From the NCBI GenBank assembly GCA_030141605.1, contig JAQGDQ010000066.1:310001-374000 (forward strand): a stretch of 64,000 nt of DNA, in the 5' to 3' direction. This document shows positions 12,674 to 62,960 of this stretch, one piece after another. Source of the DNA: Tubiluchus corallicola (taxonomy: Eukaryota > Priapulida > Priapulimorpha > Priapulimorphida > Tubiluchidae). Both the position numbers and the translations under genes were made by a program. The notes under the pieces are model-generated. The model saw nothing but the letters and a program-made list of their open reading frames with translations. It did not search any database and was not told the origin of the DNA. Position 1 is the stretch's first letter; each line of letters starts with the position of its first letter.

Positions 12674-12853
12674 TCATGACGGAGCAATCAATATCAGTGC
12701 AGCAAGCAAGCTTAATATTAGTGTCAAATGTTCCAAGCCATCACAATAACTGCTGACTCCTCTTGAATACTTTTTTGACCGCCAGATGGCATTGGTATGA
12801 TTTGTAGGTGACCATCGATTGCAGTACGATTCATCACAGCAAGAAACACATTC
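12674..12853 (-). CDS. Ly6-like gene exon 4 (CCxxxxCN signature, GPI tail, stop)
   Basis: Acceptor tatttctttttag, then 60 codons ending TGA followed at once by a second TGA. Encodes ECVSCCDESYCN and ends in a 15-residue hydrophobic run with no charged residue after it, as expected for a GPI signal rather than a receptor tail. Confidence 0.87.
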   Translation of the reverse strand, partial: ECVSCCDESYCNRWSPTNHTNAIWRSKKYSRGVSSYCDGLEHLTLILSLLAALILIAPS

Positions 12854-33280: not shown

Positions 33281-33402
33281 CTATAATGTAGATAATGTCG
33301 CATTTAAAGTGTCAGTAGCATTAGTTAAAACTGATTTGGTGGTTCCACCAATTAATCTTTCTAGAGCCTTTCTCGAAACGTCTGGATCGGAAATTAGTAA
33401 AC
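33281..33402 (-). CDS. slc28a3-like: SLC28 copy A exon 11 (C-terminus and stop)
   Basis: Acceptor tttttcag; 39 residues after the split Gly658, ending LNATLSTL and TAG. A short extracellular-type tail with two NAT sequons. Confidence 0.9.
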
Positions 33403-36400
33403 CTGAAAAATAATAAACATTAGGGAAAAAAATCCTTTGAAAAAATTTAATATTATTATTAGCAGTTTCATGGTTTTTTATCAGTGATTTAAATCTAATT
33501 CAAACATAACTGTAATCACCTTCAAAACAATATTTACGACAGCAAAATGATGATGTCGATGATGATGATGATGATGATGATGAGTGACGATGAAAATAAG
33601 GAGAAGAAGCAGAAAGAGCAGGAAGGAGCAAGGAGGAGATGAGGCCAAGAAAAAAGGATTGACTGAGAGGAGGGACAATTTCTTCGCAAATGAAACTGGG
33701 ACAGTAATCTGTGAAACCGCACTTCCGGGATTGGTTGGTTGATACTGTTAAGACCACGCCATCTAAAACTTTGCGGGCTTGATCATTCACACAAAGCAAA
33801 TACTATTGAGAAGGACCGAGCAGTGACAGATTCACCGTTGCAGATGACTTAGTATTGTGTTAGTAATAATTATAGTGTAATCTGGTGTTTATTTTGCTGC
33901 TAATTGGTCGAAATTCTGTGTGTAAGTTTCGAGAAAGCAACAGTATGGGTCGAGTTACATCATTATATATGCTGAAGCACATATTTTCATTACTGCAAGA
34001 GTTGAATTTAGGCTGGTTGTCTTATGCGAATCAAATTTGAATTGGTCCACTAAGGAATTCATCGCCGATTATGGTGAATTCACCACCATAAAAGTACATC
34101 GTTATGCCAGAATAGGCATTCATACCACAAAAAAGAGGAGGAAACAGATAGGGGGATGGTGGTGATTGTGATGGTAGGTGTTATAATGTGCCACGCACAC
34201 GTCAGGTAAAGATGGTCCTCCTCTGGAGTCTGGGGCTGTCATACAGTTATGATGGTCTGTGTTGTTTTTGTTTGATATCCACATTATTTGATGTGCTGAC
34301 TGTTGTAACTTTTTCAGTAGAAACAATGTCCATGAAATAGTTATAATAGTTTACACAGAAATTACAATTATTTTACCTGCTATGCAAGCAGTCATGAAAC
34401 AGGATATAGTTCCTGCCACCAGGGCGCGTATTCCGATCTCTGCTAAATCTCGTTTTCTCTCGGGCGCCATTGCTCCCAATGCACCAATCATGATTCCCAC
34501 AGAACTGATATTAGAGGCTCCACATAAGGCGTACGTGGCAATCACCTCTGAACGAGCCTACACCATAGAAGAGAAAATCAGGGCATTTTAGAGCCTACCC
34601 AAAACCTGGATTAAACTTGTGTCAGCTCTTTCCTTGTTATTTTAACTAGCTTTTGTTGCCTAAGTTGCCTAATCACTCCGGTTTGCTACAATGACAATAA
34701 CGACGACTACAACAACAAACTGCAGTAACGAAACCATTAAAATAGTCATCAATCATATATAATAGTGCTAGAAGCAAAATTTAGGAAACTTGACAAGGTT
34801 AACGAGTTATAATTTACTGAATAAAAATGGGTGAAGTAAGTTCACATCAATAACTGGAAAGATACATGAGCTAGAGTCTTGAAGCATGTTTTGCAAATAC
34901 CTGGAAGCTGAAACAAAGGTGTAATGAAAAGGTCAAGGTCAATGGGCATTTGGCAGTTCTACTGCAGCCTCTAACAGTGCAGCACCAAACTAAAAAAGTA
35001 AGGTACCTAGAGTGGTATAATTTACAAGATCGACACATAAGTGTTGTTACATTATGCTACACTACACTACATTGCTTCACATTACATTACATTTCAATAT
35101 CCACGACATAGTATGATATGAAACTGTTTTAATATTATCTTTAAATTAAATGTAAGTGTTCAATATATACTTTGCAAATTATAAATACTACAATAGACTT
35201 ACCGAAAGTTGTCCTTCTTTTATGTAAGTTCCTAGACGGCCATAAGCAATGAATTCATTCAGAAAAGTTTTTGTTCCTATGAGTTCTGCAACGAGGCCGG
35301 AGTCACTCCAGTCCACCCCCATCAGGAACGCGAGGGGGCGGAAAATATATGAGCAGATCAGCTGTAAAAAACAAATGATTTCAGACATTAATAACACTCG
35401 CAATTTATAAGTCGCTAGTAACTGAAAAACAACAATTACCATTCACAAAACCAGTCAGCCATCATACAAATTGGCTTAACCAAATTAATTGCTTAATTAA
35501 TCACTCAACCAACCATTTCAGTAATGTTCCGAACTGTTATGAAAATATCTTATTTATGCCTTATACTATATAGTTAGTTGCGATTACCGTAGCAAACTGA
35601 TTACGCAGCCAGTCAGTCAAATAGACAGAAAGCAGATAAGCAGGCAGGCAGACAGACAGATCAACAGGCAGGTTGACTGACTCAGTGACTGACAGACAGT
35701 CACTGAGTGATTCAGACTAAATAAACTAAACATGTTTGCTGACTTTTTGATTGATTAATGAAAGAGTGAATAATTGAATTAGTTAACTAGTTGTCCCTTT
35801 TTACTGACTGGTTTAGTTGATTGGGCAAAGTAGGGACATATATCTTTACACTGAAAATGAAAATCAAATGACTATGCCTGTTATAAACATAAAAATCGAA
35901 AGTATAAAGTAACTTGCCGTTTATAAGTGCACTCATACTCATTCAAATTGCTTAAACTGAATTACCTCAAAAGTTAGACCTTCTACGCCTATCAAACCTC
36001 CAAAGTAGGTAAGCAACGAGTTAGCCAATGCCAAGTAAGCAAGAAAAACTATGAGATTAACAGCCATGTTTGCAACTAGTTTGATCGACTGAGATGCTCC
36101 ATTAGATGCAGCTTCTACTACATTTATCTCTGATCTGCAAAAATTGGAAATGAATTAAACAATGTTACATTCTAAAGGCTCTAGATGGCGCCGTGTTTTC
36201 TAGAAATGCTAAAGTTTCAAATATGCCAATTTTTACACACTTCGGCACACAGCAATGGGGAATCAAAAGCACGGATTACTTAACGACATGTTTGTGTAAT
36301 GATCGAGGCCTGGCTTCACCATCAATGATATCCCAAAAATACAAACCATTGAACAGGCAGGAATGTCCCGCTGAACAGGCAGGGATGTTTAAGTCACAAC

Positions 36401-39400
36401 TGGATATTTATAAATCCTCTCTCTATGAAAGAGAGTGTGTGAACCACCAAGTTACATAGCTTACTATGCTGGTGAAAGCCACACAATTAGACTAAAAAAG
36501 TCTGCTTAAATAAAAACACCTATTTGTTCATTAAAAAGAAAAAAGTAGGCCTGTCTCTACAAGCTATTTTCAAAACAATATCAGATTTGTTGAAAGTTAC
36601 ATGAAATTTTGCGTAACCGGCTGACCTGCCAGGAAAACCAGGCGTGGCCGCCTGTAAACAACACTTGTTTTACTATCATACTTCCTAGTAGATCAATTAA
36701 ACAAAAACAAACACCAAAGTTGCCCTGCTCGTGTTTTTAATTAAATGTTGTGAAAAACTGATTATTTTACATAAAACAGAAAAATACCCGATAAAAAGTA
36801 ACTTAACGTTGCTGACAAAATCAGTGCAATGTTGAGTTTTCCATAACATATTTGTTTAACACATCTGCTTACAAAACAGCTAGCTTTAAATTTTAAGGCT
36901 CAACAGAATTCACCTCTATGGGTATCGAACGGGTATTGCTAACCTTTTTTAGCACTTGCAATAGTAATTAAACCATATAATAGACATCAACAAAGTTTAA
37001 GGAACGGTATAAACTTCGTTCCAAAATACCTAATAATGTAATGAATTGCAAATAAAAGTAGTCGGTTTACATACTTCTGCTCAACTTATACAAAACACCT
37101 CAGTTCAGCTCTAGATCAATAAGACCAACCAATGTTAATCACATGTAAGAACACATATTATAAAGACATACTTTTGTATCAGTTGAATGAACAAGGACTT
37201 TTTTATAGTAAACGGAATAAGAACACGTTGGAAATCAAACCTTCTCGTAAGCTATAGGTCCAGTTTGCTCTCGCTTTCAAATGATCATCAAAAATTGTGC
37301 AGCAATTTATGTTGTTACAAAACATTTCAAGTGCCACCCGTTCCTTGCAGAATTTTAAGTAAACTTCTTACCCTTTTGGCAATTCTACATCCTTTGCAGT
37401 TTTGGTCTTACTTTCCTCTACCTCAGGATAGAAAAGCTTGGAGATTGCTAAAGCAGCTGGAGCTGACATTACTGATGCAGACAGCAAATGACTTGCTTGA
37501 ACCTTGAACAATAGAACACATTTACAAAAGGTATAATATTATTAACAATTGTAAGACTAATATCATTTGACTATTATTTAATGCACACAGCTATAATGTG
37601 ATTCACTCATAATAGATTTTGATTTTAGCCATCTATAAGTGCATTGTTAACCTTAAAACGGCAACCTAGGCCCTCCAAACAGCATTGGCCTATTACAGTC
37701 ACAAGCATAATTTTCAAATTTCTTGCAAATTATATGTTGTGATTGAATTTATTAGAATTGAATTAAAATACGCTACACACAAGGCTCCACGTGGCCTAGT
37801 GTCATAATCTTGAACTTGTAATGCGAAGATCCCTGGTCCAATCTAGACTCAGCCCTAGTTTTTTCAGTGTTTCTTTTTTATTATTTAAAGATTTGATAAT
37901 TACGACTTTATTCCATCATTACTGGTGACCTTTACATGTAAATAATTAATTCATCATGCTTGGATTATTCTAGGCTTCGTATCAAGTATAAAAATTAATC
38001 TAATTAGTTATAAATTATATTAGTTTCTCTAGTGCGAGTAAATTAGCAGGAAATTTTGAGTTTGATTGGTAAGCTACTAAAATTAAATCAAGACCTGCTT
38101 TGATCACTAAATGCTTTATGCAAACAATGACCAGAATGTTAATGTGGTTAATTTAGTGTAAATGCATCTAGCTGGATACTTGATGTACGCTGTACGCTGA
38201 CATGCACTATACACATAATTACCAACAGCATCATTTTAACAGAAAGTGCTAAATGCTTAATTTCCTTGCTGGCACGAGAGAAGAAAGAATGTGAGAAAAA
38301 GGGCAGCGAGAGAAAAAGGGAAAAAGAAAGGGAGAAGACAGACAGGCAGACAGACAAACAATCAGTAAGACAGACAGACAGATTAGCAGATAGACAGATA
38401 GGTAGACAGTGAGAGCAGAAACATAGTGAGGAGAGAGAAAGAAAGAAAGGGGAGAGAGAAAAATAGAGAGTGGGAGAGAAAGAAGGGGAGAAAAACAAGC
38501 ATGTGCAAAAGAAATTGTGCGAAACAATAACGAAACAAAAAACAGTAAGGTCTTGAGACGAACAACACTATAATTAAGAAGTATGGCACTTCGCATCACC
38601 CAATTGTCATCAGCACCAACTAATTGTTTATAAACTAAATATACTTACCCCAAATTTGATATATGCTCCCAATACAGAGCCACCTACTGTAGAGAAACCA
38701 TTGGTCATTATAGCATGAAGTTCTGACTTGGTCATGTTCTTGAGGTATGGCTTAATCATCAGTGGAGCTTCAGACTTAAAACAAAATTTAATGTAGAATA
38801 ACTACCAAAGACCGTTTTTACAAACTGGCATCAAGTGGTATGTGTATGAATACACAGCAATTCAATTCATTAAGATAGAAATACATTACGAACAGCCGTG
38901 AAAATAAACTAACAATTTTGCAAAAGCATCGAAAAACTTGTAATATCTGTTAAACCAGGAAATAACAAGATTGGTTATTCTACAATGTGACAGTAAGCTT
39001 TATGGGACGATTATGTCGTAATTACGTCACTAAAACAGTTTTGGAAGCATGGCTCAACTGTGTATGCAAACAAAAATTAAGCTAAATTGATATTGCTATA
39101 AAATGCACAATTTTCCTTTAATTCAATCAGTTTTATCCCTAAATACATTAGTGAAAGTTTATATTTTGTTATTTATATTACAAAAATAATGTTATTTTTA
39201 CAAGTTGTCTATTTTAAGTCAAAAGTGACGAATCAAAATTCTATTTTCTCAACAAATATTTGAAAATCTTTAAAAAGAATATACAACTTTTCAGACCAAG
39301 CAATTGGTAATGTAACAGAGTTCTGGGCATATGAACAGAATAAAGGATGTCATCCAAGTTAAGTAACTTCATTATCGCAAAATAAAAAGAGCTCTAGCAT

Positions 39401-42400
39401 CAGAAAATATATCTAGCAATAAGCCAATTGTCAGGTTCAAAAAAGTTGCTGGCAATGGTGCATTCATTTTAACGTTCTTTTTAAATATGCGGTTTAAAAA
39501 CTTGTGGTTCATTCTTTTTCGAGTTCTTTTTAATATCCATTGGTTCAAAAAGTCGTGGTCCATTTAAAGCTTTATAAATTATATGTTGGTTAATAGTGAG
39601 CTATATAAGCTTGATATGCTACTGATGACAACATACAGAAATCATTCAAAGACTATTTATTAACCTTTAAATTTTAGTGTGAAAAATACATGAATCGAAA
39701 TTGTGTAATTTACAAGCCATTTTAATGCAGCATAATTTTTTGGCAAACTCTGTATTAATGGCGACTATAGCGTCAGAACATCCTCCCACTACTTATTACA
39801 TTAATATTCATCAGAGGTGGAAAGCGTGTAACATCAGCTTCATGTCATCTCACCTGGCCAATAAATATGTTCCCAGCTGCATTCAATGATTCAGCTGCTG
39901 TGGTTTCCATGGTAAACTGCATCAGCCAAGCCACTTTTTTGATGACGACTTGCATCACTCCCATATAGTAGAGGACGGAAATGACGGAACTGAAATACAC
40001 CACTACCGGAAGTAGCTACAAACACAGCAAGAATAGAAATTTTTATCTTCATGACACATAGCTAAAGACAAACAACATTAAGATGTTGTGATCTCGCCCA
40101 AGCTCTACAAGGAATTATTATACCACTGGTAGTGTACATGAATATAGATTAATAAAACTGAAATGCCAATTTTATCAACTGGAGTTAACAATCTGTGCAA
40201 AAATGTGAACTTGCAATTACAACACAAGACCAGTTTGACAGAAGTTTTCCAGATGTAGGTCTTACGCATTCAGCACAAAAGTGAATAGTATTAGAACTAA
40301 ATATGCCTCTCTAACAATAAGAGAAAAGGAAGAATCGTGCTAAGTCTACAATAAAAAATATGCCAGATGTTTGTGTGAGATTTTTAAAGTATCTCATGTG
40401 AACAGAAGAAGGTCTGTTACTCCTGTTAGTCTGTCAAGAATTTCAGCAACTAATAACCAATCTACACTCTTGGAAAGAACTAGTAAAGTACTTCGTGCTC
40501 CTTCCTAGACAAAAATTGGGGTCGATATTACGGTTCTCACATGCAGACAAACTCACCAAAAATATCTCCCCTTCCACGAATGACATTGTTCTTGAAATCA
40601 TTGTAAAATAATAAAAACCCAGAATACAGGAAATTTGTAAAGAGCACTAATGTTCAACGTAATAGGACATAAAAGATATAAGGATGACACCTGGAGAAAA
40701 TGAAACCCAGAAATGCGTTTTTATGAGCGAAATCGCAGAGACATTACGCATTTTGTGTTAGTGGAAAATATTTAAATATACATAATACATCGAATAGTAA
40801 TAGAACACGTGTACATTATCTTTACACTGAAATGCATGCAAAGCGTTAATGATTTAATTAATGTATATGCACAGCAAGACTTGCATTGCAAATAAATAAA
40901 AATTTGTTTCGAATTAAAGGGTTAATTTGAAGCACCTAAGTTCACTTTCATTATTCTATATAGTATAGTGTGTTAGTGCAACTGTAAATGTATTATCATC
41001 TCTTTTTATGCAAGGTACATTCACCTGAATGTTAAAAAATTAGTGTTTTCCTAATTAGTCATTAACAAGACATGTATGACTTATAGTAAAATGAAGTACT
41101 AAAGTTCTAGAACTACTTACAGTAAAGGCAAAGTTGGTGAGCTTTTGTACGACGTTGCCGTCTTCGTCCACCTGAAACTCCCCAAATACAAATTTGGCAC
41201 CTGCATCAGCGAAGGACAAGAAAATTGTAACTTTATCTCCTAGCCAAGAAAAAGCAAGATTACTAACGGAGGTTCGCAGAATCAGCAGAGCGAAGATGAA
41301 CTGTAGTCCCAGGCCCCATAAAACGGGTCTCCACCTAACCTGTTTAATAAATTATTGTCAATACCACTAAGCTTAAATAAAGCTTAAATACAGTAACTAT
41401 GTATAATAATCATGTGTGCTTGTATACCAAAATCATCCACAACGTCGGTAATTCAGCTTTTCTAGTTATTCACATATCCCAAATATAAATTTCATGAGGA
41501 TTATTTTAATACCAAGTTCATCGCTCTATGTCATTTCTAAACTGAGATAATCCATGTTGAAGTTGAGGTGCAGGCTACGCATTGAAAAACATAATTTTGA
41601 AAAAATAGCTGTTAAAGTTAGCCATTGTTTTTTGTCGCGTTTCAACAAAATGCTTGGCAACTGCATGACTGTTGGTTGCTACTGACTTTGCAAGAACACA
41701 TTGACGGCTCTTACCGATGAAGATCTGGGCTTGGCTACAGAAAAAAACCCGAAGCAAAACGACTGCTTCCACGAACTACTATCGGAGTTTGAAAATAAGC
41801 GCATTTTACAATTGCAGTGCCAGTTATTAACCAGAAAAGTGGGTACGAGGTTATAAAATTAAGTGCTTAATATTTTTAGAAATTTTTTTGATAATTTGAT
41901 GCTAGAATATAAAAGTCCAATATATTTATCATTTGTTTTTATAAAAAAAAACAAAAAATAACATTTGACCAAATTTTTGGTGTATTCTACTTTGAAGCAT
42001 CATAACGTAGTTTTAATCCCCGTTATAATGCCGACTTATAGACGGTTTTGGTTTGCAAGCACACTTATTATACTTAATCAATATAACCAATTTTTAAACA
42101 CGATACAATAATCATCAATGCAATACAAAACATTGTCAATACAAAAATGCAATATTAGGTCGAATACTCAATGTTCATTAACAATATAAATTATGTAAAA
42201 AGTACGAAGCAGTAGTCATTCAATGTATGTTATCAATATAAACAATTTTTGAAAAACGAAACAATAATCACCACGACTTTTCCCATCCATTAAAACTCTT
42301 CCGTAAATGACTTCATTTGCTTAATTAAAAATACTATGTTTTATGAACTCACATCTTTGTAAATATCGTCTATATCCTGACATTAAATTGTAGTGTCACC

Positions 42401-45400
42401 TGTTGACTATTATTTACACTTACTAATACCGGGTCATATAGACCTAGCCGTTGATTTTTAATTAGAGTTACCTCAATGACATTATTAAAACAAGTACCAA
42501 GTCTGCAGTAACATGTATAATAATTTTGCAAAAATAGACTCATGTTTGTGTGTAGCTTTAAGCTACTGCTTGTTTTCGTTGAAATTTACCACAAAGACAG
42601 GTTACCAATAGCATAGATTTGTTGTCAATTACTTAACATACAAGGACAAGGAGGCTTACACTAAGACTTCTCCCAAATGTTGTGTACCCAGTCCTACACA
42701 TGTTAACCGGTTTAATTAAGGAAAAACTGCAGTATTGCTTTAGAGTTTTGTTAGACATAAATGGCAACAAAAAATGCTAGGTGGTCGCACTGTAATAGGG
42801 TGCTTGGTCTGTGTAACTGTAGATGTGTTGCATTGTAATTGTAATTGTAGATGTAGATATATTTATTTCTAGATGGGTATCGTTCAACATTTCTACTCTC
42901 TGGTAGACTAAGTTTATTTAACTTGTTTTTATTTTATAAAGCAATCTTATTTGATCTTGTATTAATTAATTTTAATGTTTGTTTGTTCGTTTATTTGGTA
43001 GTTTTCATTTTATGCAATTGTTTTGGGCAATTATTCTGTAGATTCAAATCCAAAAACTAACTTCTTCAATCAAAGTCAGTCCAATTTAAATTAGTACTAC
43101 ACTAGAAAGTAGTTTTGAAAATGTTCTACTCTAGCATGTTTAATTTGAAGTTAGTTTCAACTTTAGAAATAAATGGAAGTTTGACATATTTACATATTAA
43201 GTAACAGTGGTCAACATCACTAGACACACGATTCACCAAATATCTCAACCCTCCATTTAGTTTTACTTCAGGTTATAGTTTAAGTAAAAAAACTCGTTAA
43301 AAAGTTGAAGAAATAATAAAAACAATCCACAATGTGGCGCCACCTATGGACTGCACCTACAAATAAAATGCATTTACCCATCTTGACATGGTAATATGAG
43401 TCTCTTGTGACATACGTACGTGTGAGGGGTGTCTGGAAAAGACGAAACAGAACAAGCAAAGAGTAAACAGTCCAACAGCAGAGATGAGATTGTTTGGCCT
43501 CTCGTGTAAGCTCAAACCAGCAAACAATATAACAAAAATCAATACGACCACAACAGAATAAACTAACCTGGAAAAGATAAAATAATTATAATGGTAGCCT
43601 TCAAAACATGTTTACAAAATATAAATAATTTAGTGTAATGAAAGAATTACAGTTTATTAACCCGCAACTAGCCATTTGTGCATGAAAATTATCGTTTTGT
43701 GGATAGCAAGACGTGTTAATGATAAACCCAAGAAAAAAGAAATAATCTTCTTTGTGACTCTCTGTTATTTTCAAACCATATATTATTCAGTGCTTAAAAA
43801 TCTCCTGGGCAAATTATAGATTTTTCTCTCTTACACAACATTACCCAAAATCAATCTGGAAATATCTTTGTCAGAAATGGGAGTGCAACGAAACAACGAC
43901 ACAAAAAATCTAAATAACATAAATTAACATAGCAATAATTAAACAAAATTAATGTTAATACACGCAGGCGATAATTTACAGTTTAAAAACACTTACCATT
44001 TCAACCAGTGCCATTGTTTTTCAATCTTTTCCGCCATACGGTCCCAAAGCTTAGTACAAGAAGTCTCGTATAATGGCTTAGTCTTATAATAACCGTAAAT
44101 AAGAACAACAAACACAGTGATACCAATGAGTTCTTTGATTCCCTTGGGCATATAACCAAGTGGTTTCTTATAATGGCGCACATTGTACGCTATAGCCGCG
44201 AAAAAGTATTTAAAATACAGAAGAAGCGCTATTACTCCTATAACAATCCATATTGTCCGTTTGTTTTTCGTGTAAAAGTCTGACAGTGCATTGACCACTT
44301 TTCCAACACAGTTCTTTGCCGGTTCTGGCGTGTCTTCCGGTTTATCGTGCACTGGTTTTTCCTCTTTGTCCACTGATATGGCGTGAGTGTTTCCATCATC
44401 TTGCTTAGCCTAAAACAAAAAACAGGAGTGGCTCACATCATGTACACACTGATGACTAGGTGTTGTAGAAATGCTTTTGTAGTATATAAAAAATCATCCT
44501 GTCTTCTTTTAAGTGAACTCTAATGTTTTGAATAAATATTATTAAACTATTTTACAAGGTTCTAGAATTTTAACTGGATTGAAATACCACTTTTACTGCC
44601 TGATTTGTGGTTTTAATCCTGGCTAAAATTTAAATTACTTCACAATTTTATACACAGAGAAACTAATTTAATATCTACGCGTTTCATCTATCAAATAGTA
44701 AAATAAAATATTGTTTCACTATATATGTAATAAGAGAGAAAACAAAATATGTAAGCGAACGTTTCCAATTAGCCATGAAGAAACACTTCAGTAAACTTAA
44801 AAGAGAAACTGTAAACGTTTAGTGATTTGCATATTTTTTGTTTTATAACATTTGACAATTTCAAAGCCGGAATCGCGCACTAAACACAATGGTGAAGTGC
44901 GATCGGAATCTACCTCATTTTCGATAATGCTACTTTTCAGAGAAGACACCGCCACTTTTTGATGTATGTAAAAACCCTTTCTCATTAAAGTAAATAACTG
45001 TAGATGGTGTGACGGTGTGATGGCTAAAACAATCCAGGAGTAGCTCTTCAGGTGATCAACAACTTATTTACAAACTAGGCCTGGAGTTCTTTAACTTGAT
45101 TTAGACAAACCTTGCCTTAAAGTAAGGATATGGCAAGTACTACATACCTAAATACAGAGTACTAGATATCTTATATTAGCATTAGAAACACAAAGGTAGT
45201 GTCATGACTGAAATTTCAATTGTAGATTATGTCATATAAAAAATAATCAGCAAAAAATCAAGAAAATGAAAACATAGACCAGAAACAAACTATAAGTGTA
45301 AGTAAATATAAGAACAATGTTTGTTTTCTGCCTTACACCAAAAAATCTTGAAAATAAATGTTTTACTCGAATCACGTTTTCTGCCTTATATCAAAAAGCT

Positions 45401-45749
45401 TGAAAATAAATGTGCTACACAAATCATGCCACCACTTTACTTGTTTGGAGATTTAAAAAAATCATTTTCTAGAAGCATTACTTACGTATTCGGCTCCACG
45501 GTAAACATGGTCTGCTTCTACAGATTCATTTGATTTCGCATCCAATCCGGAATCTATCGATTTATTGTGATTGGCTCCACTCTGCTGCTGATTTGCCGGA
45601 CCACTCCTTTCAACTAGGTTATCATAATCCAGAGGAGCCGATTCTGCTGATTGATCAGAGCCGGGCTTCTCCACTGCCTCCTTTTCAAACGCCAGATTGT
45701 CGTAAACTTTTGATGCATCTTTTTTGTATTCTTCCGGTCCTTCGGACAT
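33281..45749 (-). CDS. slc28a3-like: Concentrative nucleoside transporter (SLC28/CNT family), complete, copy A
   Basis: Cation-coupled importer of nucleosides across the plasma membrane. Eleven coding exons, high to low: 45486-45749, 43997-44409, 43420-43567, 41121-41339, 39854-40015, 38649-38774, 37372-37502, 35966-36134, 35203-35361, 34377-34557, 33281-33402. They join in frame into 697 residues, close to vertebrate CNT3. The cytoplasmic N-terminus (1-about 135) is polar and has two YDNL motifs. Family hallmarks follow: [14 protein letters not shown] (276-289), GNIFIGQSEAPL (396-407), [15 protein letters not shown] (449-463), FLNEFIAY (577-584), ATYALCG (604-610) and APERKRDL (628-635). Odd points: Ala611 where the family, and copy B, has Phe in the nucleobase pocket; Asn427, Gly433 and Lys442 at usually constant positions; Ser403 for the common Thr (shared with copy B). 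It has no stop or frameshift, so it looks intact. Confidence 0.95.
33540..33590 (+). repeat. (GAT)n tract in SLC28 copy A intron 10
   Basis: Run of GAT triplets. Copy B has a corresponding shorter, interrupted tract at about 55272-55330. Poly-His/Ser/Ile frames here are artefacts. Confidence 0.9.
34377..34557 (-). CDS. slc28a3-like: SLC28 copy A exon 10 (substrate-site helix)
   Basis: Encodes [16 protein letters not shown] and [11 protein letters not shown] through MTACIAG. Asn613 and Ser616 of the substrate site are kept; the aromatic before them is replaced by Ala611. Ends in phase 1. Confidence 0.95.
35203..35361 (-). CDS. slc28a3-like: SLC28 copy A exon 9 (NEF motif)
   Basis: 53 codons, phase 0 at both ends. 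Contains [15 protein letters not shown] and FLNEFIAY; Glu580 corresponds to the conserved substrate/cation-linked Glu of the family. Confidence 0.95.
35630..35712 (+). repeat. (CAGA/CAGG)n tract in SLC28 copy A intron 8
   Basis: Degenerate CAGA/CAGG/CTGA tetranucleotides. The same intron of copy B carries a different GAAT/GAAC repeat at 56913-56982. Confidence 0.8.
35966..36134 (-). CDS. slc28a3-like: SLC28 copy A exon 8
   Basis: Acceptor atttttgcag; encodes [20 protein letters not shown] and a membrane helix ([15 protein letters not shown]). Enters in phase 2, leaves in phase 0 (GAG|GTAAT). Confidence 0.94.
37372..37502 (-). CDS. slc28a3-like: SLC28 copy A exon 7
   Basis: Encodes [20 protein letters not shown], the strongly conserved SHLL/SVMSAP segment, then a charged loop ([19 protein letters not shown]). 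Donor AAAAGG|GTAAG, phase 2. Confidence 0.94.
37782..37866 (+). repeat. tRNA-derived SINE-like repeat in SLC28 copy A intron 6
   Basis: Reads like a decayed tRNA: ggctccacgtggcctagtg (acceptor arm and A box), cttgaacttgtaatgcgaag (anticodon-arm region), ctggtccaatctagactcag (B box), then a T-rich tail. The matching copy at 60230-60316 shows it predates the duplication. Too decayed for a functional tRNA. Confidence 0.6.
38280..38490 (+). repeat. Purine-rich tract with (CAGA)n core in SLC28 copy A intron 6
   Basis: Almost pure A/G with a central run of GACA/CAGA units. Its homologue in copy B is at about 60880-61175. The Leu/Ser/Cys-rich minus-strand frames over it are artefacts. Confidence 0.85.
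38649..38774 (-). CDS. slc28a3-like: SLC28 copy A exon 6
   Basis: 42 codons, phase 0 at both ends. Starts [19 protein letters not shown], completing the GQ-S-E-AP substrate motif begun in exon 5, and continues [20 protein letters not shown]. Copy B has [20 protein letters not shown] here, the usual family form. Confidence 0.95.
39854..40015 (-). CDS. slc28a3-like: SLC28 copy A exon 5
   Basis: 54 codons, phase 0. Encodes [20 protein letters not shown] and [14 protein letters not shown], the start of the Na+/nucleoside-binding hairpin region. Donor GGCCAG|GTGAG. Confidence 0.95.
41121..41339 (-). CDS. slc28a3-like: SLC28 copy A exon 4
   Basis: 73 codons, phase 0. Encodes [20 protein letters not shown] and a soluble stretch ([16 protein letters not shown]) before the next helix. 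Donor ACT|GTAAGT. Confidence 0.95.
43420..43567 (-). CDS. slc28a3-like: SLC28 copy A exon 3
   Basis: Acceptor tatcttttccag completes Trp226, then two membrane helices ([17 protein letters not shown] and [18 protein letters not shown]) to SRHPSH. Donor CAC|GTACGT, phase 0, chosen because it restores the family's HVRWRPVLW junction. Confidence 0.93.
43997..44409 (-). CDS. slc28a3-like: SLC28 copy A exon 2
   Basis: 137 codons plus two bases. A charged cytoplasmic part, then the first helices ([33 protein letters not shown]) and an ending EKQWHWLKW across the splice. Acceptor ttgttttag; donor AAATG|GTAAGT, phase 2. Confidence 0.93.
44410..45485 (-). other. Intron 1 of SLC28 copy A
   Basis: Holds the left arm of an inverted repeat (44866-45112) whose other arm lies upstream of the gene. 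Confidence 0.85.
44866..45112 (-). repeat. Inverted-repeat element, left arm
   Basis: Its reverse complement matches 46471-46692 over most of the length (shared landmarks: ctgaagagctactcctggat, gagaaagggtttttacatac, ccattgtgtttag). The left arm has 22 extra bases after ggcggtgtc. Confidence 0.9.
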
Positions 45750-46215: not shown

Positions 46216-46470
46216 GTTTAGCCTGAGCAACTAAATACTAGTGCATACAGAAAAGCAGTGCAGTTTCTCACTGTTTATAGAAAAGAATGTCTAAACTGAC
46301 TGCTAAAAATCGATACATACAGTAAGCAGTAGGATAGCACAGTAAATAATACTGTAGAATAATTTTACTACCAAGCTTTGATTTTCTCTGTTGGGATTCA
46401 CCACAGATTAGCTGTTAACACTGGCCCTTAACAACATTCATACAGTTTTTAGTCATGTATATGTCAAGGT

Positions 46471-46692
46471 TTGTCTTAATCAAGTTAAAGAACGCCAGGC
46501 CTACCTAGTTTGTAAATATTTTGATTACCTGAAGAGCTACTCCTGGATTGTTTTTGCCATCACACCGTCTATAGTTATTTATCTTAATGAGAAAGGGTTT
46601 TTACATACATCCAAAAGTGGCGGTGTCGAAAATGAAGTAGATTCCAATCGCACCTAACCATTGTGTTTAGAGTGCGATTCCGGATTTGAAAT
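46471..46692 (+). repeat. Inverted-repeat element, right arm
   Basis: Opposite-orientation partner of 44866-45112. Together they flank SLC28 exon 1 at distances of about 0.4 and 0.7 kb. Confidence 0.9.
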
Positions 46693-50474: not shown

Positions 50475-51175
50475 ACGTAAAACTGTAAACTGTGAGAATA
50501 TTTCTTTTAAAGCCTTTTTTCTCTGAAACTTCATTTGTACATTCGAAAAAAATGCCACAAAGGTTTTCCAAAGTGTGTAAAAATGTAGGGCGAACTTTTT
50601 CAATGAATTAAAAATGTTGTCTGTGAAGCATTTCTTTTTTTGCATTTTCTTTTCCAATAAGCCTCACATTGTCAGATTGTATACCCGGTCTGCACAGGCT
50701 CAAAACGTCGGTAAAGTCTAGGAAACAAAATCTGTCACTAACTTGCCTTCCTGTCTATTTTTTTCTCGTCGATCATACCTAAGAATGCAGTTATTTTACG
50801 ATTTTATTTGCAGGCGTACTGCTTGGCGCTTGCATGACTCCGCCTATATCAAAATACAGCGAGGTCACATATGCGCAATGTCGTTCCTTACGGACATCAC
50901 TTCCGCTTTCTTCCTCGATTTTTCGTTTTTCGCAAGATGTCTGTGCTGCGCTAAATTTGATGTGTTTCAATGCTAACCAAACCGAAAACGCGCATGTTTA
51001 TAAAGAAATAAATCCGCTTTTTTCTATCACGCTAGTCAGTAATGAATTTTGACAGCAGGAGTCTACCAGGCTTAAAGTGGAACTTTAATTATCTAATGAA
51101 TCCTTCACTTACTTTGGGGACATTTTATCGTTATGTTATTTGCGACGTATTGTATGTCGTTGCGTCAGTTATATT

Positions 51176-51540
51176 TCCGCCAGTCAATCTTTTCGCCAGT
51201 CTACCTTTTCACCAGTCTACTTTCTCCCCAGTCTATTTTTTCGCCAGTCTACCTTTTCGCCAGTCTTCTTTTTTTGCTAGTCTACCTTTTCCCCCAGTCT
51301 ACTTTTTGGTCAGTCTACCTTGTCGCCTGTCTTCATTTTTGCCAGTCTACCTTTTCGCCAGTCTTCTTTTTTTGCTAGTCTACTTTTTCCCCAGTCTATT
51401 TTTTCGCCAGTCTACCTTTTTACCAGTCTACCTTTTCGCCAGTCTTCTTTTCCCCAGTCTACTTTTTCGCCCGTCTACTTTTTCGCCCGTCTACCTTTTC
51501 ACCAGTCTACTTTTTCGCCAGTCTATCTTTTCGTCAGTGT
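51176..51540 (+). repeat. Minisatellite (unit about CCAGTCTACTTTTTCG)
   Basis: Twenty or so units of 15-17 bp, each with CAGTCTA followed by a T-rich run and CGC or CCC. Reads as FASLPFRQS-type peptide in three frames, which explains the long frame at 51042-51551. An inverted fragment of the same motif lies near 52130-52165. Confidence 0.93.
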
Positions 51541-52199: not shown

Positions 52200-53172
52200 C
52201 AAGACAATACACATCTGAAATCAGAAACTTTAATAATTTACTTTCTTTTTGAATTAAATGTTGCTGATATTCCTACAAAGCCAACTAGAGATGAGATAAC
52301 CGATTTCTGGTTAAAAGCACCTAGTTCCTTACAAACCCCTAAGGACAATGGGCTGTTTACGACTTACCTCCTGTTACGTCAGAACAGCTAGTTGATATTC
52401 AGTCTGACGAACTTATAACACTTTTCTTAGTAATGACACAGTTTTTGTTTCATTCTGTGATATAGACATTGCAAAGTTTTCCAAACTTTCTAGATTGATA
52501 CGTGTCACTGCCTAAGTGTTAAAAGCGGCAGATAGTTTTTTAGAAGGCCTACTGACCTACATCTCACAGTGATTGAGCTGGAACGAGCCACTCAGCTATG
52601 GGTAAAACAGGTTCAGCGTGACACATTAACGTCTAAACAACTGAGGAAACGTCATGATCCCCGACCTACCCTCGACAAAGATGGACTCATCCGATACCAG
52701 GTGCTGCCATCTATGTCGGAGCTTGACTTCACCGTGGATGATTTCAATACTGGCAAAGATGTAATTTCGCCGCAGCTAGTGGAGTTCTGGAAGAATGGTC
52801 AAACCATTCTACAGCGTTTTTTGGGACTGTTGGTTAACCGAATATCTGCAGTTTTTGCGAGAGTGCTATACAGCTGAGTTGAAACATTCTAAGGTGACGT
52901 CGTCGGTTTTCCCCATATTAATGACGTCGTTCTCGTGGTCATTACCACGTTTACAGTGGCGTTTAGCAAGAATTATTGTATTACATGCATCTGCTGATCA
53001 ATGGACAAATTCGCTCAACCACCGTTCAATTAGTTAATGGCAGGAAATTAAACCGTTCCTTAAAGTCTTTATTTAAATTAGAATTACCTAAACCGACAAG
53101 TTCAACGGCAATTAAAAGACTTGACTTAGTTGATAGTAATGATGTCAACAGTTTCTCAAGAATTCACTCCTA
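52200..53172 (+). pseudogene. Broken BEL/Pao-type retrotransposon pol fragment
   Basis: Pieces in three frames resemble the 3' half of BEL/Pao pol. About 52240-52330 carries ELNVADIPTKPTRDEI..FWL, like the RNase H/integrase linker. About 52470-52510 carries KLSRLIRVTA. About 52565-52700 carries LTVIELERATQLWVKQVQ and DKDGLIR, the integrase zinc-region neighbourhood. About 52800-53090 carries FWDCWLTEYLQFLREC, PRLQWRLARI and NGQIRS..VQLVNGRKLNRS, the pol-C-terminal DUF5641-type region. Stops and frameshifts break it, and the integrase catalytic core appears deleted between DKDGLIR and the C-terminal part. No LTRs identified. Family-level call from motif memory. Confidence 0.6.
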
Positions 53173-55092: not shown

Positions 55093-55214
55093 CTATAATG
55101 TAGATAATGTCGCATTTAAAGTGTCGGTAGCATTAGCTAAAACTGATTCGGTGGTCCCACCCACTAAACCTTCTAGAGCCTTTCTCGAAACGTCTGGATC
55201 GGACATTAGTAAAC
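55093..55214 (-). CDS. slc28a3-like: SLC28 copy B exon 11 (C-terminus and stop)
   Basis: Encodes [20 protein letters not shown] and ends [11 protein letters not shown]. Differs from copy A by a handful of residues (M/I, G/R, V/I, E/K, A/T). Confidence 0.9.
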
Positions 55215-58200
55215 CTGAAAAAGCGATAAACATTAGTGAAAAAAATCAATGAACGCCTTCACAATCTTTACTACGATGATGATGATGATGTCGACGATGG
55301 CGATTATGATAACGATGACTGATGATGAAAACAAGAAAGAGGAGCAAGAATACTACAGCAAAGAGGAAAAGAAAAAAGAGCAAACGGATAGGGCGACGGT
55401 GGTGGCAAGAGCGGTGATTGTGATGGTAGGTGTTATAAAATCCCTATAAATATGCTGCGCATGTGTCAGGTAAAGATGGCCCTCTTTTGGAGTCTGGGTC
55501 CCTTTTTCGTGCTGTAATGATCGTCTGTGTTGTTTTGTTTGATATCCACATTATTTGATGTGCTGAATGTTGCAACTTTTTACGTAGAAACAATGTCCAT
55601 GAAATAGTTGTAATAGTTAACACAGAAATTATAATTATTTTACCTGCTATGCAAGCAGTCATGAAACAGGCTACAGTTCCTGCCACCAGGGCGCGTATTC
55701 CGATCTCTGCTAAATCTCGTTTTCTCTCGGGCGCCATTGCTCCCAATGCACCAATCATGATTCCCACAGAACCAAAATTAGAGAATCCACATAAGGCGTA
55801 TGTGGCAATTACCTCTGAACGAGCCTACAACATAGAAGAGAAAATCAGAGAATTTTAGAATCTATCCAAAACTTGGATCAAACTTTTGTCAGCTCTTTCC
55901 TTGTTATTTTAACTTGCGTCTGATGCTTAATTACTCCGGTTTGCTGCAAATTGAAGACTCGTAAGAAACAGCAACACAACTTGTAAGAAAAAAACACAGA
56001 CGACGATGACAACAATAATAAACTGCAGTAACGAAACCATTAAAATAGTACTAATCATATATAATAGTGCTAAAAGCAAAATTTTAGGAAACTGGACAAG
56101 CTTCACGACTTCTAATCTGTTGAATAAAAATGGGTGAATTAAGTTCACATCAGTAACTGGAAGTCATGAAGCACATTTTGCAGGTATCTGGAAGCTGAAA
56201 CAGAGGTGTAACGAAAAGGTCAAGGTCATTAGGCATTTTGGGAATTTGCCAGTTTCTAGTGCAACCTCTAACAGAGTAGCACTAAACAAAAAATGTACAG
56301 TATCTAGACTGGTATAATTTACGAGATGGACACCTAGGGTAGGTGTTGTTACATTACATTACATTGCTTCACAGATTACATGTCAATACTCACGACGTAG
56401 TATGTTATAAAATTGTTTTAATATTATCCTTAAATTTAAATGCTACTTTTAAATGTAAGTGTTCAATAAATACTTTGCAAATCTAAAATGCTACAATAGA
56501 CTTACCGAAAGTTGTCCTTCTTTTATGTAAGTTGCTAAACGATCATAAGCAATGAATTCATTCAGAAAAGTTTTCATTCCTATTAGTTCCGCGACGAGGG
56601 CGGAGTCACTCCAGTCCACCCCCATCAGGAACACAAGGGGGCGGAAAACATATGAGCAGATCAGCTGTAAAAAGCAAATGATTTTTGGCATTAATAACTC
56701 TCACTTTATAAGTCACTAATCTCTGAAATACAATTGCTGTTCACGAAGCCAACTAAACAACTAGTCACTCAATCAACTATTTCAGTAACATTATTTGCCT
56801 CATAAAAATAGCAAAAGCCTTGTTTATATAATTTAGTTAACTGCGATTGCCGTAATTAACAAACTGAATATGCAGCCAGTCAGGCGAACAGATAGACTGG
56901 CAGACAGACTGGCTAAATGAATGAATGAATGAACGAACGAGTGAACGAACGAACAAATGAATGAATGAGTGAATGAATGGCTGATGACTAAATTAAACTA
57001 AGAGTGTTTGTTGTTGACCTTTTGATTGATTAATGGAAGAGTGAATAATTGAATTATTTAGCTAGTTATCTGTTTTTTATTATATGAGTAATTGCTGCTC
57101 AGTTGATTGGATAAAGTAGGGTCATATGTAGTTGGCGAAAAGTTACTGTTATTTGTGAAAGTCAAATAGGCATCCCAATTATTAGCATAAAAACCGAATC
57201 TTTCGTAAACAAAATATTAAGTAACTAGCGGTTTATATATTCTAAATTTCTCCTAGCGTTTTATAAAAACTATTTTTTTCATATAAATATAGAGCATTCA
57301 AATTCATTCAAATTGCTTAAACTGAATTACCTCAAACGTTAGACCTTCTACGCCTATCAAACCTCCAAAATACGTAAGCAAGGCGTTAACCAATGCCAAG
57401 TAAGCCAGAAAAGCAATGAGATTAACAGCTATGTTTGCAACCAGTTTGATTGACTGAGATGCTCCATTCGATGCAGCTTCTACTACATTTATCTCTGATC
57501 TGCAAAAATATGAAATGCATGAAACAATGTTGCATTCTACAGACACTTAGATGGCGTTACAAGCAGTGTTTTTATGAGAATCTTCTCTCTGCTTCAAGAG
57601 CTTTTATCTTAAAAACTTGAACTTTGTTTGAGAAAAGTTAGTTCTGGGCGAGGTAAAACTGAGTGATCGCGGTTAGCAACCAGAGTTAAGCTACGCCGAT
57701 GTTGAAAACAGATGGGTGACCACAACGTTAGATACTAGTTCTGGGGTGTTTCAGATACTGATGCTTGCTGTGTGTGTACTGTTTACCTATTAGAGAGAGA
57801 ATGTTTTCCCATTTTTATGCTCCTTTGCCAGTTCGATATCTGACCTTACAAGAGTAGCTTGAATAATGAGCCGTATTCCGGTCCCGGCACAAGCACCCAC
57901 ATAACCTTGCATTTGAATGTTGGATTTCAACTTACAGAACGCTGTATAGAAAAATCTCGTTGACATGAGATAAGAACTGAAATAGCGTTTTATGAAGTTG
58001 CATGTATTGGTGTTGTGCGCGTACGGAAGGAACGGTATTGTAAACTGCAATGTAATGGCATGCAAGTTTCTGAAGGTAGTAAACGTTGTGATAGAACCAT
58101 TGCCTGGATGGAAAAAATGTATTCTAACAATTTTTCATTTCTCACTTCCCTGGATAGGCAGGCCTACTGCGTGTTACTCGTGAGACTGTGTGAAAGTTGT

Positions 58201-61200
58201 AACTGTATATTTTAGGTGCTGCCATCTATTGATTAGTTACTTTAACATTTACTAGTTCAATTCACCCCTTATCACAATTGTTCAGTCCAGTGAATATTCA
58301 AACTCTCTGTATCTCCCCTATTTTACTGTAATGGGATATGTGAAGCCAAGTTTTTGCATAGTTCTTTACATATATAAACTGGCTAGATTCCACTTCTAGC
58401 CACTGTCTACTCATTCGTGATCACTGCAGGACACTCTGGTCCTCAGTGCAGCAGTCATGTTCATATAACTCTGTAGTGTATTTATTGTAATAAAAGTGTT
58501 TTAGTTTTGTGCAAACATGTAATCTGGTGTTTAGTTGTTTTCTACAAGTGTTCAATTTCGACTTCACAAATAACTTTTACAGACTGTACTGAACTGTTAC
58601 AACTACAGAATTCGTAAGACAAATGCATATTTCCTTAATTTTTCTAATGAATTAAATGATATACTTGACAGAAAACAGCGCAGCAGTTCAAACGATGCTC
58701 TGTTTGCTTTTTAATTTCTCCCTTGTTTACTATTTAGTTACCTTGGTAAGACTTTTATCTCCGTATTCTCTAAAAATGCTAAAGCTGCAATTACGCTAAT
58801 TTATACACAGCAATGGCGAATCAAAAGCAGGGATTACTTAACGAAATGTTAGTGATATGACCGGAACCTAACTTCACCATTAATGATATCCCACCAGCAT
58901 GAACCACTGAACAGTCAGACAGGGACAATCTGACGAATATAAATCCTCCTTCCACGAAATTACATAGCATTAATTAGGCTACTTTCCTTGTGAAAGCAAT
59001 ATAATTAGACTACAAAAGTATTCTGCTAAAACAATGACACTTTTGCTGATTAAAAAGAAAGCAGTAGGCCCGTGTCTACATACTATTCTCAAAACAATAA
59101 CAGATTTTTGAAAGTTACGTGAAATTTTGTGTAACCGGCTGACCTGCCAAGAAAACCAGGCCTGGCGCCTGTGTCAACACTTGTTTTATTACCATACTTC
59201 TTAGTAGATCAATTAAACAAAAAATAAACACCCAAGTTGCCCTCCTCATGTTTTTAAATGTTGTGATTAACCGATAAAAAGTAACTTGCAATGTTGAGTT
59301 TTCCATAACATATTTGTTTAACACATTTCCTTACAATGCAGCTAGCTTTACAGCTACGACTCAACAACATTCACCTCTATTGTTTAACACATTTCCTTAC
59401 AATGCAGCTAGCTTTACAGCTACGACTCAACAACATTCACCTCTACGAAGGGCATTGGTAACCTTTTTTAGCACATGCAACAGCAATTATACCATATAAT
59501 AGTCATCAACAATGTTTAAAACCCCGTATAAACTTCATTTCCTGTAGATACCCAAAATCCCTACTAATGTAATCATTGTAATGAATTGCAAATAAAAATA
59601 GCCAGTTTATAAACTTCTGTTTAATTTATGTAAAACACTGCAGTTTAAAAGCTCTAGATTAATAAGACCAAACAATGTTAATCTCATGTATGCATAGAAA
59701 CTGGTTTTTTTTATAGTAACTGGAATAAAAACGTTGCAATTTCATACTTTCTCGTAAGCTATCTGCTCTCGTTTTCAAATAATCATCTAAAATCGTGCAA
59801 CAATTTATGTTGTTGTAAAACATTTCAAATGCCAACCCATGCCTTGCAGACTTTTAAGTAAATTTCTTACCCTTTTGGCAATTCTACATCCTTTGCAGTT
59901 TTAGTTTTACTTTCCTCTGTCTCAGGATAGAAAAGCTTGGAGATTGCTAAAGCAGCTGGAGCTGACATTACTGATGCAGACAACAAGTGACTCGCTTGAA
60001 CCTTGAAAAATAAAATTCATTTATAAAAGATATAATATCTATAACGTGATTCACTCATAATAGATTGATTTTAATTTTAGCCAACTATAAGTACATTGTT
60101 AACTTTAAAACGGCAACCTAGGCCCTCCAATGGCCGCTGACCAACTACTATCACAAGTATAATTTTCGACTTGCGACTTATATTTTGTGATTGAATTTAT
60201 TAGAACTGAATTAAAATACGCATACAAACAAGGCCCCATGAGGCCTAGTGTCACAATCTTGGACTTGTAATGCGAAGACACCACCTGGTTTAAATCTAGA
60301 CTCAGTCCTGGTTTTTTCAGCGTTTTTTGTTATTTAAAAATTTAATAATTATGACTTTATATTCCATCGTTATTGGTGACCTTTAAATGTAAATAATCAA
60401 TTCATTATGCTGGGATTATTCTAGGATTCAGATTAATTATAAAAATTATTCCAATTAGTTATTAATTATGTTAATTGCTCTAGTGCATGGGTTCCTATCT
60501 ATTGCATAGAGTCTAGTGCGAGTAATTTGCAGGAAATTTTGCGTTGATTGGTAAGCTACTAGAAGTAAACCAAGACCTGCTTTGATCACTAGAGGCGCTC
60601 TTTGCTCTAGCAGTCATGGTTTTAAATTTGCAGGTCCTGGAGTGTTACTTGTTAATGTTATTTTAATTACGTTGAAGTGCAGGCAGCTTTACGCAAACAC
60701 TGACAATCACCAGAATGTTAATGTGGTTAATTCAGTGTAAATGCATCTAGCTGGATACTTGATCTTTCATTGTATGCTGTACAACCTTGAAAGTGACATG
60801 CACTATGAGTATTACCAACAGAATCGTTTAAACAGAAAGTGTTAAATGCTTAATTTCCTTGCTGGCATGAGAGGAGAAAGAATGAGAGAAAAGGAGCAGC
60901 GAGAGAAAAAAGGGAAAAGAAAGGGCGAAAACAGACAGGCAGACTGACTGACACACTGTATTTCACTCAGTATTTCAATTTAGACATCAGACATTTGCCA
61001 TCAGCCTGACAGACAGACAGATTGGCAGATAGACAGATAGGTAGATGATAGTGAGAGGAGAAACACAGTGAGGGAAGAGAAAGAGAGAAAGAGGGCGAGA
61101 GAAAAAGAGAAAGGGGGAGAGAAGGGGGAAGAAGAGAGAGACAGAGAGAAGGGGAGAAAGAGAAGCACGCGCAAAAGGAAATTTGCGAAACCTCTAAGGA

Positions 61201-62960
61201 AAAACACTAAGATCCTGAGACGAACAACACTATAATTAAAAGGTATGGCACTTCGCATCGCCCAATTGTCATCACATTTAACTAATTGTTTACAAACTAA
61301 ATATACTTACTCCAAAGCTGATATATGCTCCTAATACCGAGCCAGCTACTGTAGAGAAGCCGCCGGTCATTATAGCATGAAGTTCTGACTTTGTCATATC
61401 TTTGAGGTATGGTTTAATCATCAACGGAGCTTCAGACTGGAAATGAAATTTAATGCAAAGTAAATACTAAAAACCGTTTTACAGGTTGGTATTAAATTAT
61501 GTATGGTGTGTATACGAATATGCTACGAAGAGCCGTGATGCGTTTCAGCATTAAAATTTTCATTATAAAAATAAGCAAAGGCGTCGTAAAACTGTAATAT
61601 CCGTTAATACCACGAGCATACAAGACTGGGTGTACGATAACGAGGCAGTGAGCTTTAAGCAGTGAACATTGCTCAACTGCGTGTGCAAACAAAAAATAAG
61701 CTAAATTGATATTGCTATAAAATGCACAACTTTCTCTCAATTCAATCAGTTTTATCCCTAAATACATTAGTGAATGTTTACTCTGAATATTTTGTTATTT
61801 TTGTTACAAAATAATGTTATTTTTACAAGTTGTGTAAATTAAAGTCAACAGTGACGAATCAAAATTCTATTTTCTCAACAAATATTTGAAAATTTTCAAA
61901 AAGGATATATAGTTTTTTACATCAAGCAATTCACGTAACAGTTCAAGGCATATGAACGCAATAAAGGATTTCATCCAAGTTAATCAATCAATTACATGAC
62001 TTCATTATCACAATTTCGCTTAAGATTATATATATAGCAATAAGCCAATTATTTGGTTCAAAAAAATTGTGGCGATGGTACATTCTGTTTAAAGTTTTTA
62101 AAATATGCGTTGGTTCAAAAAGTTGGGGTACATTCATTTTCGAGTTCTTTTTTTGATACGCGTTGGTGCAAAAGTCGTGATCTTTTTAAAGCTTTTTATA
62201 ACTATATACTGGTTGATAGTGAGCTATATAAGCTTGATGTCTTACTGATGACAACATGCAGAAATCGTCCAAAGATTATTTATTAACCTTTAAATTTTAA
62301 TGTGAAAAATAGATAAATCGAATCGAAATTGTGTATTTTATAAGTCCTTTTAATATGGCATAATTTTTTGGCAAACTCCGCATCAATGGCGTCGGAACAT
62401 CCCTCACCTATTACATTAACTTTTTTAACTTTTAACTTTTATTTTTCATTCCACCACATCACAATTTGGAAACATTATGCATGTAATTGTATTTGTGGTT
62501 TACATGCCAAAAACGCTGCAAAACGTACAGATCGTCCAGACCATTAACATAAATAGCATATAAAGTAGATCGATGATGACAAGTGGTGATGAACATTAAA
62601 TGATCAAACTATACAGGATGTTAACTATTAATACTATTACTCTACAGGATTTTACGTATGATTGAAGTACAAACATGCTCAACCTGAAGTGAAATAATTA
62701 TATAACAGGCCTGGGATCAACTTAATTAAAGATGAAAACTTTTGTTAATAAGTCATCGAAGGTGGCAAACACGTAACATTAGCTTTCTGTCATCTCACCT
62801 GCCCAATAAATATATTTCCAGCTGCATTCAATGATTCAGCTGCTGTGGTTTCCATGGTAAACTGCATCAGCCAGGCGACTTTTTTGATGACGACTTGCAT
62901 CACTCCCATATAGTAGAGGACGGAAATGACGGAACTGAAATACACCACCACCGGAAGTAC
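55093..62960 (-). CDS. slc28a3-like: Concentrative nucleoside transporter (SLC28/CNT family), copy B, 3' part (exons 5-11)
   Basis: Seven coding exons, high to low: 62799-62960, 61311-61436, 59871-60001, 57331-57499, 56506-56664, 55644-55824, 55093-55214. Lengths (162, 126, 131, 169, 159, 181, 122) and phases equal exons 5-11 of the left gene. Translation has no stop: 349 residues covering the C-terminal transport domain. Family motifs are canonical: [50 protein letters not shown], and [15 protein letters not shown] with the pocket Phe kept. The last exon ends LNATLSTL like copy A. Exons 1-4 must lie beyond 64000; intron 4 still aligns with copy A at the edge (acattcacctgaatgt). Probably a functional Na+-coupled nucleoside importer. 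Confidence 0.93.
55644..55824 (-). CDS. slc28a3-like: SLC28 copy B exon 10 (substrate-site helix)
   Basis: Encodes [19 protein letters not shown] and [20 protein letters not shown]. Retains the Phe-x-Asn-x-x-Ser pattern of the nucleoside pocket that copy A has altered. Confidence 0.95.
56506..56664 (-). CDS. slc28a3-like: SLC28 copy B exon 9 (NEF motif)
   Basis: Encodes [20 protein letters not shown] and [18 protein letters not shown]. Same length and phase as copy A exon 9. Confidence 0.95.
56913..56982 (+). repeat. (GAAT/GAAC)n tract in SLC28 copy B intron 8
   Basis: Tetranucleotide run (gaatgaatgaac...). Copy A has CAGA/CAGG units at the same intronic place. Confidence 0.85.
57331..57499 (-). 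CDS. slc28a3-like: SLC28 copy B exon 8
   Basis: Encodes [20 protein letters not shown] and [20 protein letters not shown]; phases 2 and 0 as in copy A. Confidence 0.94.
57643..57760 (+). repeat. 5S rRNA-like segment (probable 5S-derived SINE or pseudogene)
   Basis: Contains in order ccagagttaagctacgccga, gatgggtgaccac and ctggggtgtt, corresponding to the internal control region and 3' arm of metazoan 5S rRNA (GTTAAGC..CG, GATGGGTGACC, GGGTGTTG). Lies in the copy-B-specific insertion. Incomplete and mutated, so not a working 5S gene. Confidence 0.6.
58198..58601 (+). mobile_element. Candidate solo LTR in SLC28 copy B intron 7
   Basis: Bounded by short inverted ends, TGTAAC...GTTACA. Inside, in the right order, are a TATA box (tatataaac, 58371-58379) and an AATAAA signal (58489-58494), and the element carries a gctgccatctattg block near its start. 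No clear target-site duplication was seen, so boundaries are tentative. Confidence 0.4.
59315..59446 (+). repeat. 66-bp tandem duplication in SLC28 copy B intron 7
   Basis: Two adjacent copies (59315-59380, 59381-59446) differ only at the last base. Copy A has one diverged unit at about 36852-36918. Confidence 0.97.
59871..60001 (-). CDS. slc28a3-like: SLC28 copy B exon 7
   Basis: Encodes [20 protein letters not shown] and [19 protein letters not shown]; one Val/Thr change from copy A. Confidence 0.94.
60230..60316 (+). repeat. tRNA-derived SINE-like repeat in SLC28 copy B intron 6
   Basis: Duplicate of the copy A element (37782-37866): gaggcctagtgtcac, cttggacttgtaatgcgaag, ctggtttaaatctagactc, then T-rich sequence. 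Confidence 0.6.
60880..61175 (+). repeat. Purine-rich tract with (CAGA)n in SLC28 copy B intron 6
   Basis: Homologue of the tract at 38280-38490, here interrupted by about 65 bp of ordinary sequence near 60950-61005. Confidence 0.85.
61311..61436 (-). CDS. slc28a3-like: SLC28 copy B exon 6
   Basis: Encodes [19 protein letters not shown] and the canonical [20 protein letters not shown]; phase 0 at both ends. Confidence 0.95.
62799..62960 (-). CDS. slc28a3-like: SLC28 copy B exon 5
   Basis: Acceptor ctttttgtag; encodes [20 protein letters not shown] and AAGNIFIGQ. First exon of copy B inside the window; the preceding exon is outside. Confidence 0.95.

Follow-up and report, generated by a model that had tools for sequence, protein, structure and literature searches.

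Can an SLC28/CNT protein that has lost the phenylalanine of its substrate pocket still serve as a transporter, and what would it then carry? The question is raised by two tandem SLC28/CNT genes with an animal-type intron-exon structure, both on the minus strand of the 64-kb stretch of Tubiluchus corallicola DNA analysed here (the window). The spliced model of copy A (33281..45749) has 11 coding exons and 697 aa, with a reading frame that runs uninterrupted up to a stop codon and introns that start with GT and end with AG in 10 out of 10 cases. Exon e1 (45486..45749) begins at a putative start ATG at 45749, e5 (39854..40015) encodes the Gate domain and the HP1 motif GNIFIGQ, e6 (38649..38774) the SEAPL and TM7 region, e9 (35203..35361) the HP2 motif FLNEFIAY with Glu580, and e10 (34377..34557, 181 nt) the motif CGASNISS with Ala611. 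Copy B (55093..62960) is represented by seven exons, e5-e11, with 349 matching residues, and the counterparts of e1-e4 lie beyond the window; its e10 (55644..55824), which matches that of copy A, encodes CGFSNFGS.

The family to which copy A belongs is indicated by three Pfam domains, PF01773, PF07670 and PF07662 (Nucleos_tra2_N, Gate and Nucleos_tra2_C), which score 86.4, 68.8 and 269.5 bits against cut-offs of 27, 29.6 and 32.3, and the e10 peptide by itself matches PF07662 in copy A (1.1e-23) as well as in copy B (2.7e-26). The closest PDB matches of copy A, nearly full length, are bovine and human CNT3 (SLC28A3; 1.8e-156 and 2.4e-151; PDB 8tz1 and 6ksw), followed by vcCNT (5.4e-83; PDB 3tij), which shares the transport core by sequence and is without the N-terminal helices (PMC7440666). 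Copy A is filed as an SLC28/CNT homologue, with the missing pocket Phe as a stated exception. Column 611 corresponds to Phe366 of vcCNT and Phe563 of hCNT3, and it is here that the Phe expected in the family is absent, Ala611 standing in its place.

The sequence-only reading had reported this motif difference, and the exon translations bear it out: Ala is residue 611 of the spliced model, Asn613 and Ser616 are still present in the alignment, and the interval in which the difference was noticed is exactly one minus-strand exon, flanked by TGGTGTAG before and GTAAAATA after. By counting, Ala611 is the 14th residue of e10, encoded at 34516..34518, and the Cys codon of the motif starts at 34524. 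A third copy of e10 was not found in the window by low-stringency tblastn, and there is thus no sign of an alternative Phe exon for copy A within the window.

Given that misassembly is likelier for tandem copies, it might be supposed that the codon is an assembly or base-calling error, or else a rare allele. However, the codon is GCC in copy A and TTC in copy B, so that two bases would have to be wrong, and a further seven base differences are found in six other e10 codons; the six introns compared at the locus also differ by 13.5-29%, and the frame of copy A is intact, which together make an error or a rare allele highly improbable. The same exon also holds a run of 98 bases identical between the copies, which may have arisen through gene conversion, although constraint on the exon may account for it.

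What the loss of this residue would mean can be judged from studied CNTs. In vcCNT of Vibrio cholerae, Phe366 stacks on the uracil and makes CH-pi contacts to the ribose. A 2014 eLife paper describes it as universally conserved and as a strict requirement for the binding of nucleosides; by ITC, the KD for uridine rises from 45 uM in the wild type to 920 uM in F366Y, 1470 uM in F366W and approximately 1630 uM in F366A, the last value being flagged by its authors as not reliably measurable, while the Phe366 mutants run as trimers (PMC4139061). In hCNT3, Phe563Cys is inactive (PMC5465479). The hCNT3 ribose is contacted by E519, N565 and S568 and the base by Q341, T342, E343 and V375, with F563 acting on both, through CH-pi (ribose) and pi-pi (base) interactions; the selectivity between purines and pyrimidines has been assigned to G340, Q341, S374 and V375, in HP1 and TM7 (PMC7440666).

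Given this, the earlier claim that the Phe lines the nucleobase site holds for the base contact but leaves out the contact with the ribose, and the motif residues Asn and Ser, which had been placed next to it at the nucleobase, hydrogen-bond the ribose and not the base (PMC7440666). The further expectation that Phe to Ala would alter affinity agrees with F366A and Phe563Cys (PMC4139061, PMC5465479), whereas an altered choice of substrate is the weaker expectation, since the known selectivity residues lie elsewhere than the Phe. The published substitutions are losses of binding or function, and they would fit an inactive protein as well as one that binds weakly.

The weight of the substitution also depends on how rarely Ala occupies this column. 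Among 53 prokaryote-type CNTs, Phe is found in 51, Val in one (L034), Tyr in one (L035) and Ala in none; many of the sampled loci are near-identical, and the count corrected for this redundancy, by reduction at 80% identity to 36 representatives, gives Phe in 34, Val in one, Tyr in one and Ala in none. Human and bovine CNT3 both have Phe, as do hCNT1 and NupC according to a published table (PMC5465479). Ala is thus not common in the CNTs sampled (0/53 prokaryote-type, 0/2 mammalian), among which the only invertebrate members are copies A and B themselves, and no report of a natural Ala at the pocket-Phe position was found in open-licence PMC papers, covered mostly at the level of title and abstract.

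The 53 CNTs comprise 25 of 26 genome-scan loci, 21 of 88 plasmid loci (hand-picked for diversity among the 60 listed of the 88 records), two of seven phage-labelled loci and five of five viral-contig loci; viral contigs gave one CNT fragment (L027) in one scan and five loci in another. Left out of the count were L026, which stops short of the column, and L027, which gave no match. The genome, plasmid and viral queries end before the motif, and these loci were therefore not chosen by the column, while the two phage-labelled loci were found with a query that contains it. Because its two peptide patterns were taken from the window copies, the genome scan favours close, canonical relatives.

The two plasmid CNTs that have Val or Tyr are like copy A in combining a non-Phe residue with a retained Asn and Ser, and differ from it in that their HP1 is altered (GVVES in L034, GMTAV in L035), where that of copy A is intact (GQSEA). 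Their scores against the NCBIfam NupC profile are 249.3 and 330.2 bits, and that of the partial copy B is 437.5, against a cut-off of 442, in a comparison that included no Phe-bearing bacterial CNT. As Phe is found in 51 of the 53 and is not universal, it is read here as a sign that nucleosides are bound in the canonical way, and not as a sign of descent. The gene of L035 adjoins a nucleoside hydrolase gene.

These divergent bacterial CNTs lend something to the proposal that Ala at 611 is an ordinary, old trait of an invertebrate SLC28 clade, accompanied by compensating changes nearby (Ile614, Ser615, Gly433). A lineage that had drifted at the motif is also suggested by Ser612, present in both window copies at a position that is Ala in 47 of the 50 outside sequences. 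On the other hand, Ala is found in 0 of 55 outside sequences, none of them from an invertebrate, and the closest relative, copy B, carries Phe, so that an old clade trait appears rather improbable. The ancestral state is assumed to be Phe, since this is the residue of copy B, of both CNT3 proteins and of nearly all of the sampled prokaryote CNTs. Conservation among the 50 outside sequences reaches at least 90% in 33 columns, and of these 611 is the sole one at which copy A departs while copy B matches the consensus; only copy B departs at 555, both depart differently at 648, and both depart identically at six more.

The seven other substrate contacts (Gln402, Ser403, Glu404, Val436, Glu580, Asn613 and Ser616) are identical in the two copies, as are Asn397 and Thr431 of the sodium site, and the base-contact residues of HP1, Gln, Thr/Ser and Glu, are present in copy A as Gln402, Ser403 and Glu404. 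Relative to CNT3, the substrate-contact residues of copy A are the same except at 403 and 611, where Thr342 corresponds to Ser403 in both copies (NupC also has Ser, in the table of PMC5465479) and Phe563 to Ala611. The essential glutamate motif of HP2, given as (G/A)xKx3NEFVA(Y/M/F) (PMC5465479), is present in both copies around Glu580 (copy A numbering) with one mismatch, Val to Ile.

Near the pocket, Asn427, Gly433 and Lys442 of copy A all differ from copy B, in which the counterpart of e6 lies at 61311-61436. Positions 427 and 442 vary freely among the prokaryote CNTs, while at 433 none of these has Gly, and 45 of 48 have either Ala or Ser. Gly433 and Lys442 of copy A, in place of which copy B and the mammalian CNT3 proteins carry Ala and Ser, correspond by counting to A372 and S381 of hCNT3, and Gly433 is adjacent to the sodium-site residues, as counted from T370 and I371 of hCNT3. 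Gly433 and Lys442 may weigh as much as Ala611.

The history of the pair bears on whether copy A is still maintained. The copies align across exons and introns, and the six introns compared differ at 13.5-29% of aligned positions, with many indels. Over the 349 codons of e5-e11 the copies show 26 nonsynonymous and 37 synonymous codon differences, with a dS of 0.185, a dN of 0.041 and a dN/dS of 0.224 (bootstrap 0.13-0.35), which is an average over both copies and is evidence against an old pseudogene. Exons e10 and e11, with small numbers of changes, show little sign of constraint when taken alone (dN 0.047 and dS 0.066 in e10; dN 0.073 and dS 0.103 in e11).

The argument from constraint presupposes that a reasonable proportion of the silent changes fell on the copy A branch. 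If half of them did, neutrality would predict about 72 nonsynonymous changes on that branch, against 31.5 observed on both branches; with 35% the expectation is 51 (P 0.002), and with 25% it is 36 (P 0.22), which is uninformative. When bovine CNT3 serves as the outgroup of a relative-rate comparison, 11 changes are unique to copy A and three to copy B, and all sequences differ at eight sites (chi2 4.57); with human CNT3 the figures are 10, three and nine (chi2 3.77). The excess of copy A is borderline, with p of about 0.03 and 0.05 at one degree of freedom.

The A-B differences within the motif include changes at 611, 614 and 615, and the clustering of nonsynonymous changes at 611-615 is no greater than chance (permutation p 0.48). 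Positive selection, as a reading of such clustering, is thus unsupported, and what gives the finding its weight is the identity of the altered column.

The larger number of unique changes in copy A, among which are Gly433 (beside the sodium-site residues) and Lys442, would be expected if copy A no longer transports, either as a recently relaxed paralogue on its way to loss or as an intact non-transporting protein, such as a nucleoside sensor or a subunit of CNT trimers formed with copy B. The severe effects of F366A in vcCNT and Phe563Cys in hCNT3 favour the same reading, as does a dN not far under dS in e10 and e11, and hCNT1 has itself been termed a transceptor (PMC8629896). Against it stand the intact frame and splice sites of copy A, the overall A-B dN/dS of 0.22 and the retention of the remaining substrate contacts and of two sodium-site positions. 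A non-transporting copy A is accordingly regarded as possible but doubtful, a grading which, like the confidence attached to all the readings here, is a matter of judgement.

The reading preferred over these rivals, and held at about even confidence, is that copy A is an intact tandem-duplicate CNT that lost the pocket Phe on its own branch and would work at low affinity or with a shifted substrate. The retained contacts, the intact gene and the average constraint argue that the protein still does something, the published Phe mutants argue that it binds uridine poorly, and the preference follows from the two together. In the proposed sequence of events, a tandem duplication would have yielded copy A, and the change from Phe to Ala at 611 would have followed on its branch. 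Deprived of the aromatic ring that packs on the base and the ribose, copy A would have a far lower affinity than copy B for ordinary nucleosides such as uridine; it would still use the retained contacts and the sodium-site residues. Copy A may then transport with low affinity, or it may have moved to a ligand that occupies the space left by the ring, with copy B retaining the ancestral role.

A narrower proposal, considered unlikely, is that copy A evolved away from the Phe in favour of a non-canonical substrate, which might be a nucleoside that is modified or of greater bulk, or else some related metabolite. If this were true, the tandem pair would constitute a natural experiment in CNT specificity. 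In the pair, a binding residue described as universal has been replaced naturally by Ala in one transporter that is intact in other respects, next to a sister gene of canonical type, and a comparison of the two would bear both on the role of the Phe in animal CNTs and on the possible repurposing of the pocket.

Finally, several repeats and fragments accompany the two genes. Two stretches of about 260 bases in inverted orientation, 80% identical (44858-45114 and 46465-46692), lie on either side of e1 of copy A, and the intron between e7 and e8 of copy B contains a perfect 66-base tandem duplication (59314-59445). Between the two copies, at 52780-53034 on the plus strand, there is a fragment that matches DUF5641 (E 3.7e-7), a domain known from BEL/Pao-type retroelements. 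An array of about 23 copies of a 16-base unit (51174-51538) lies inside the sole listed ORF of the window with at least 150 aa, and an array of about 50 copies of TTTAC occupies 14496-14748. Two exon-like stretches on the minus strand, at 14122-14334 and 12677-12853, resemble parts of the Ly6/uPAR domain below the cut-off, with UPAR_LY6_2 scores of 18.9 and 21.5 bits, respectively, against 31.5.
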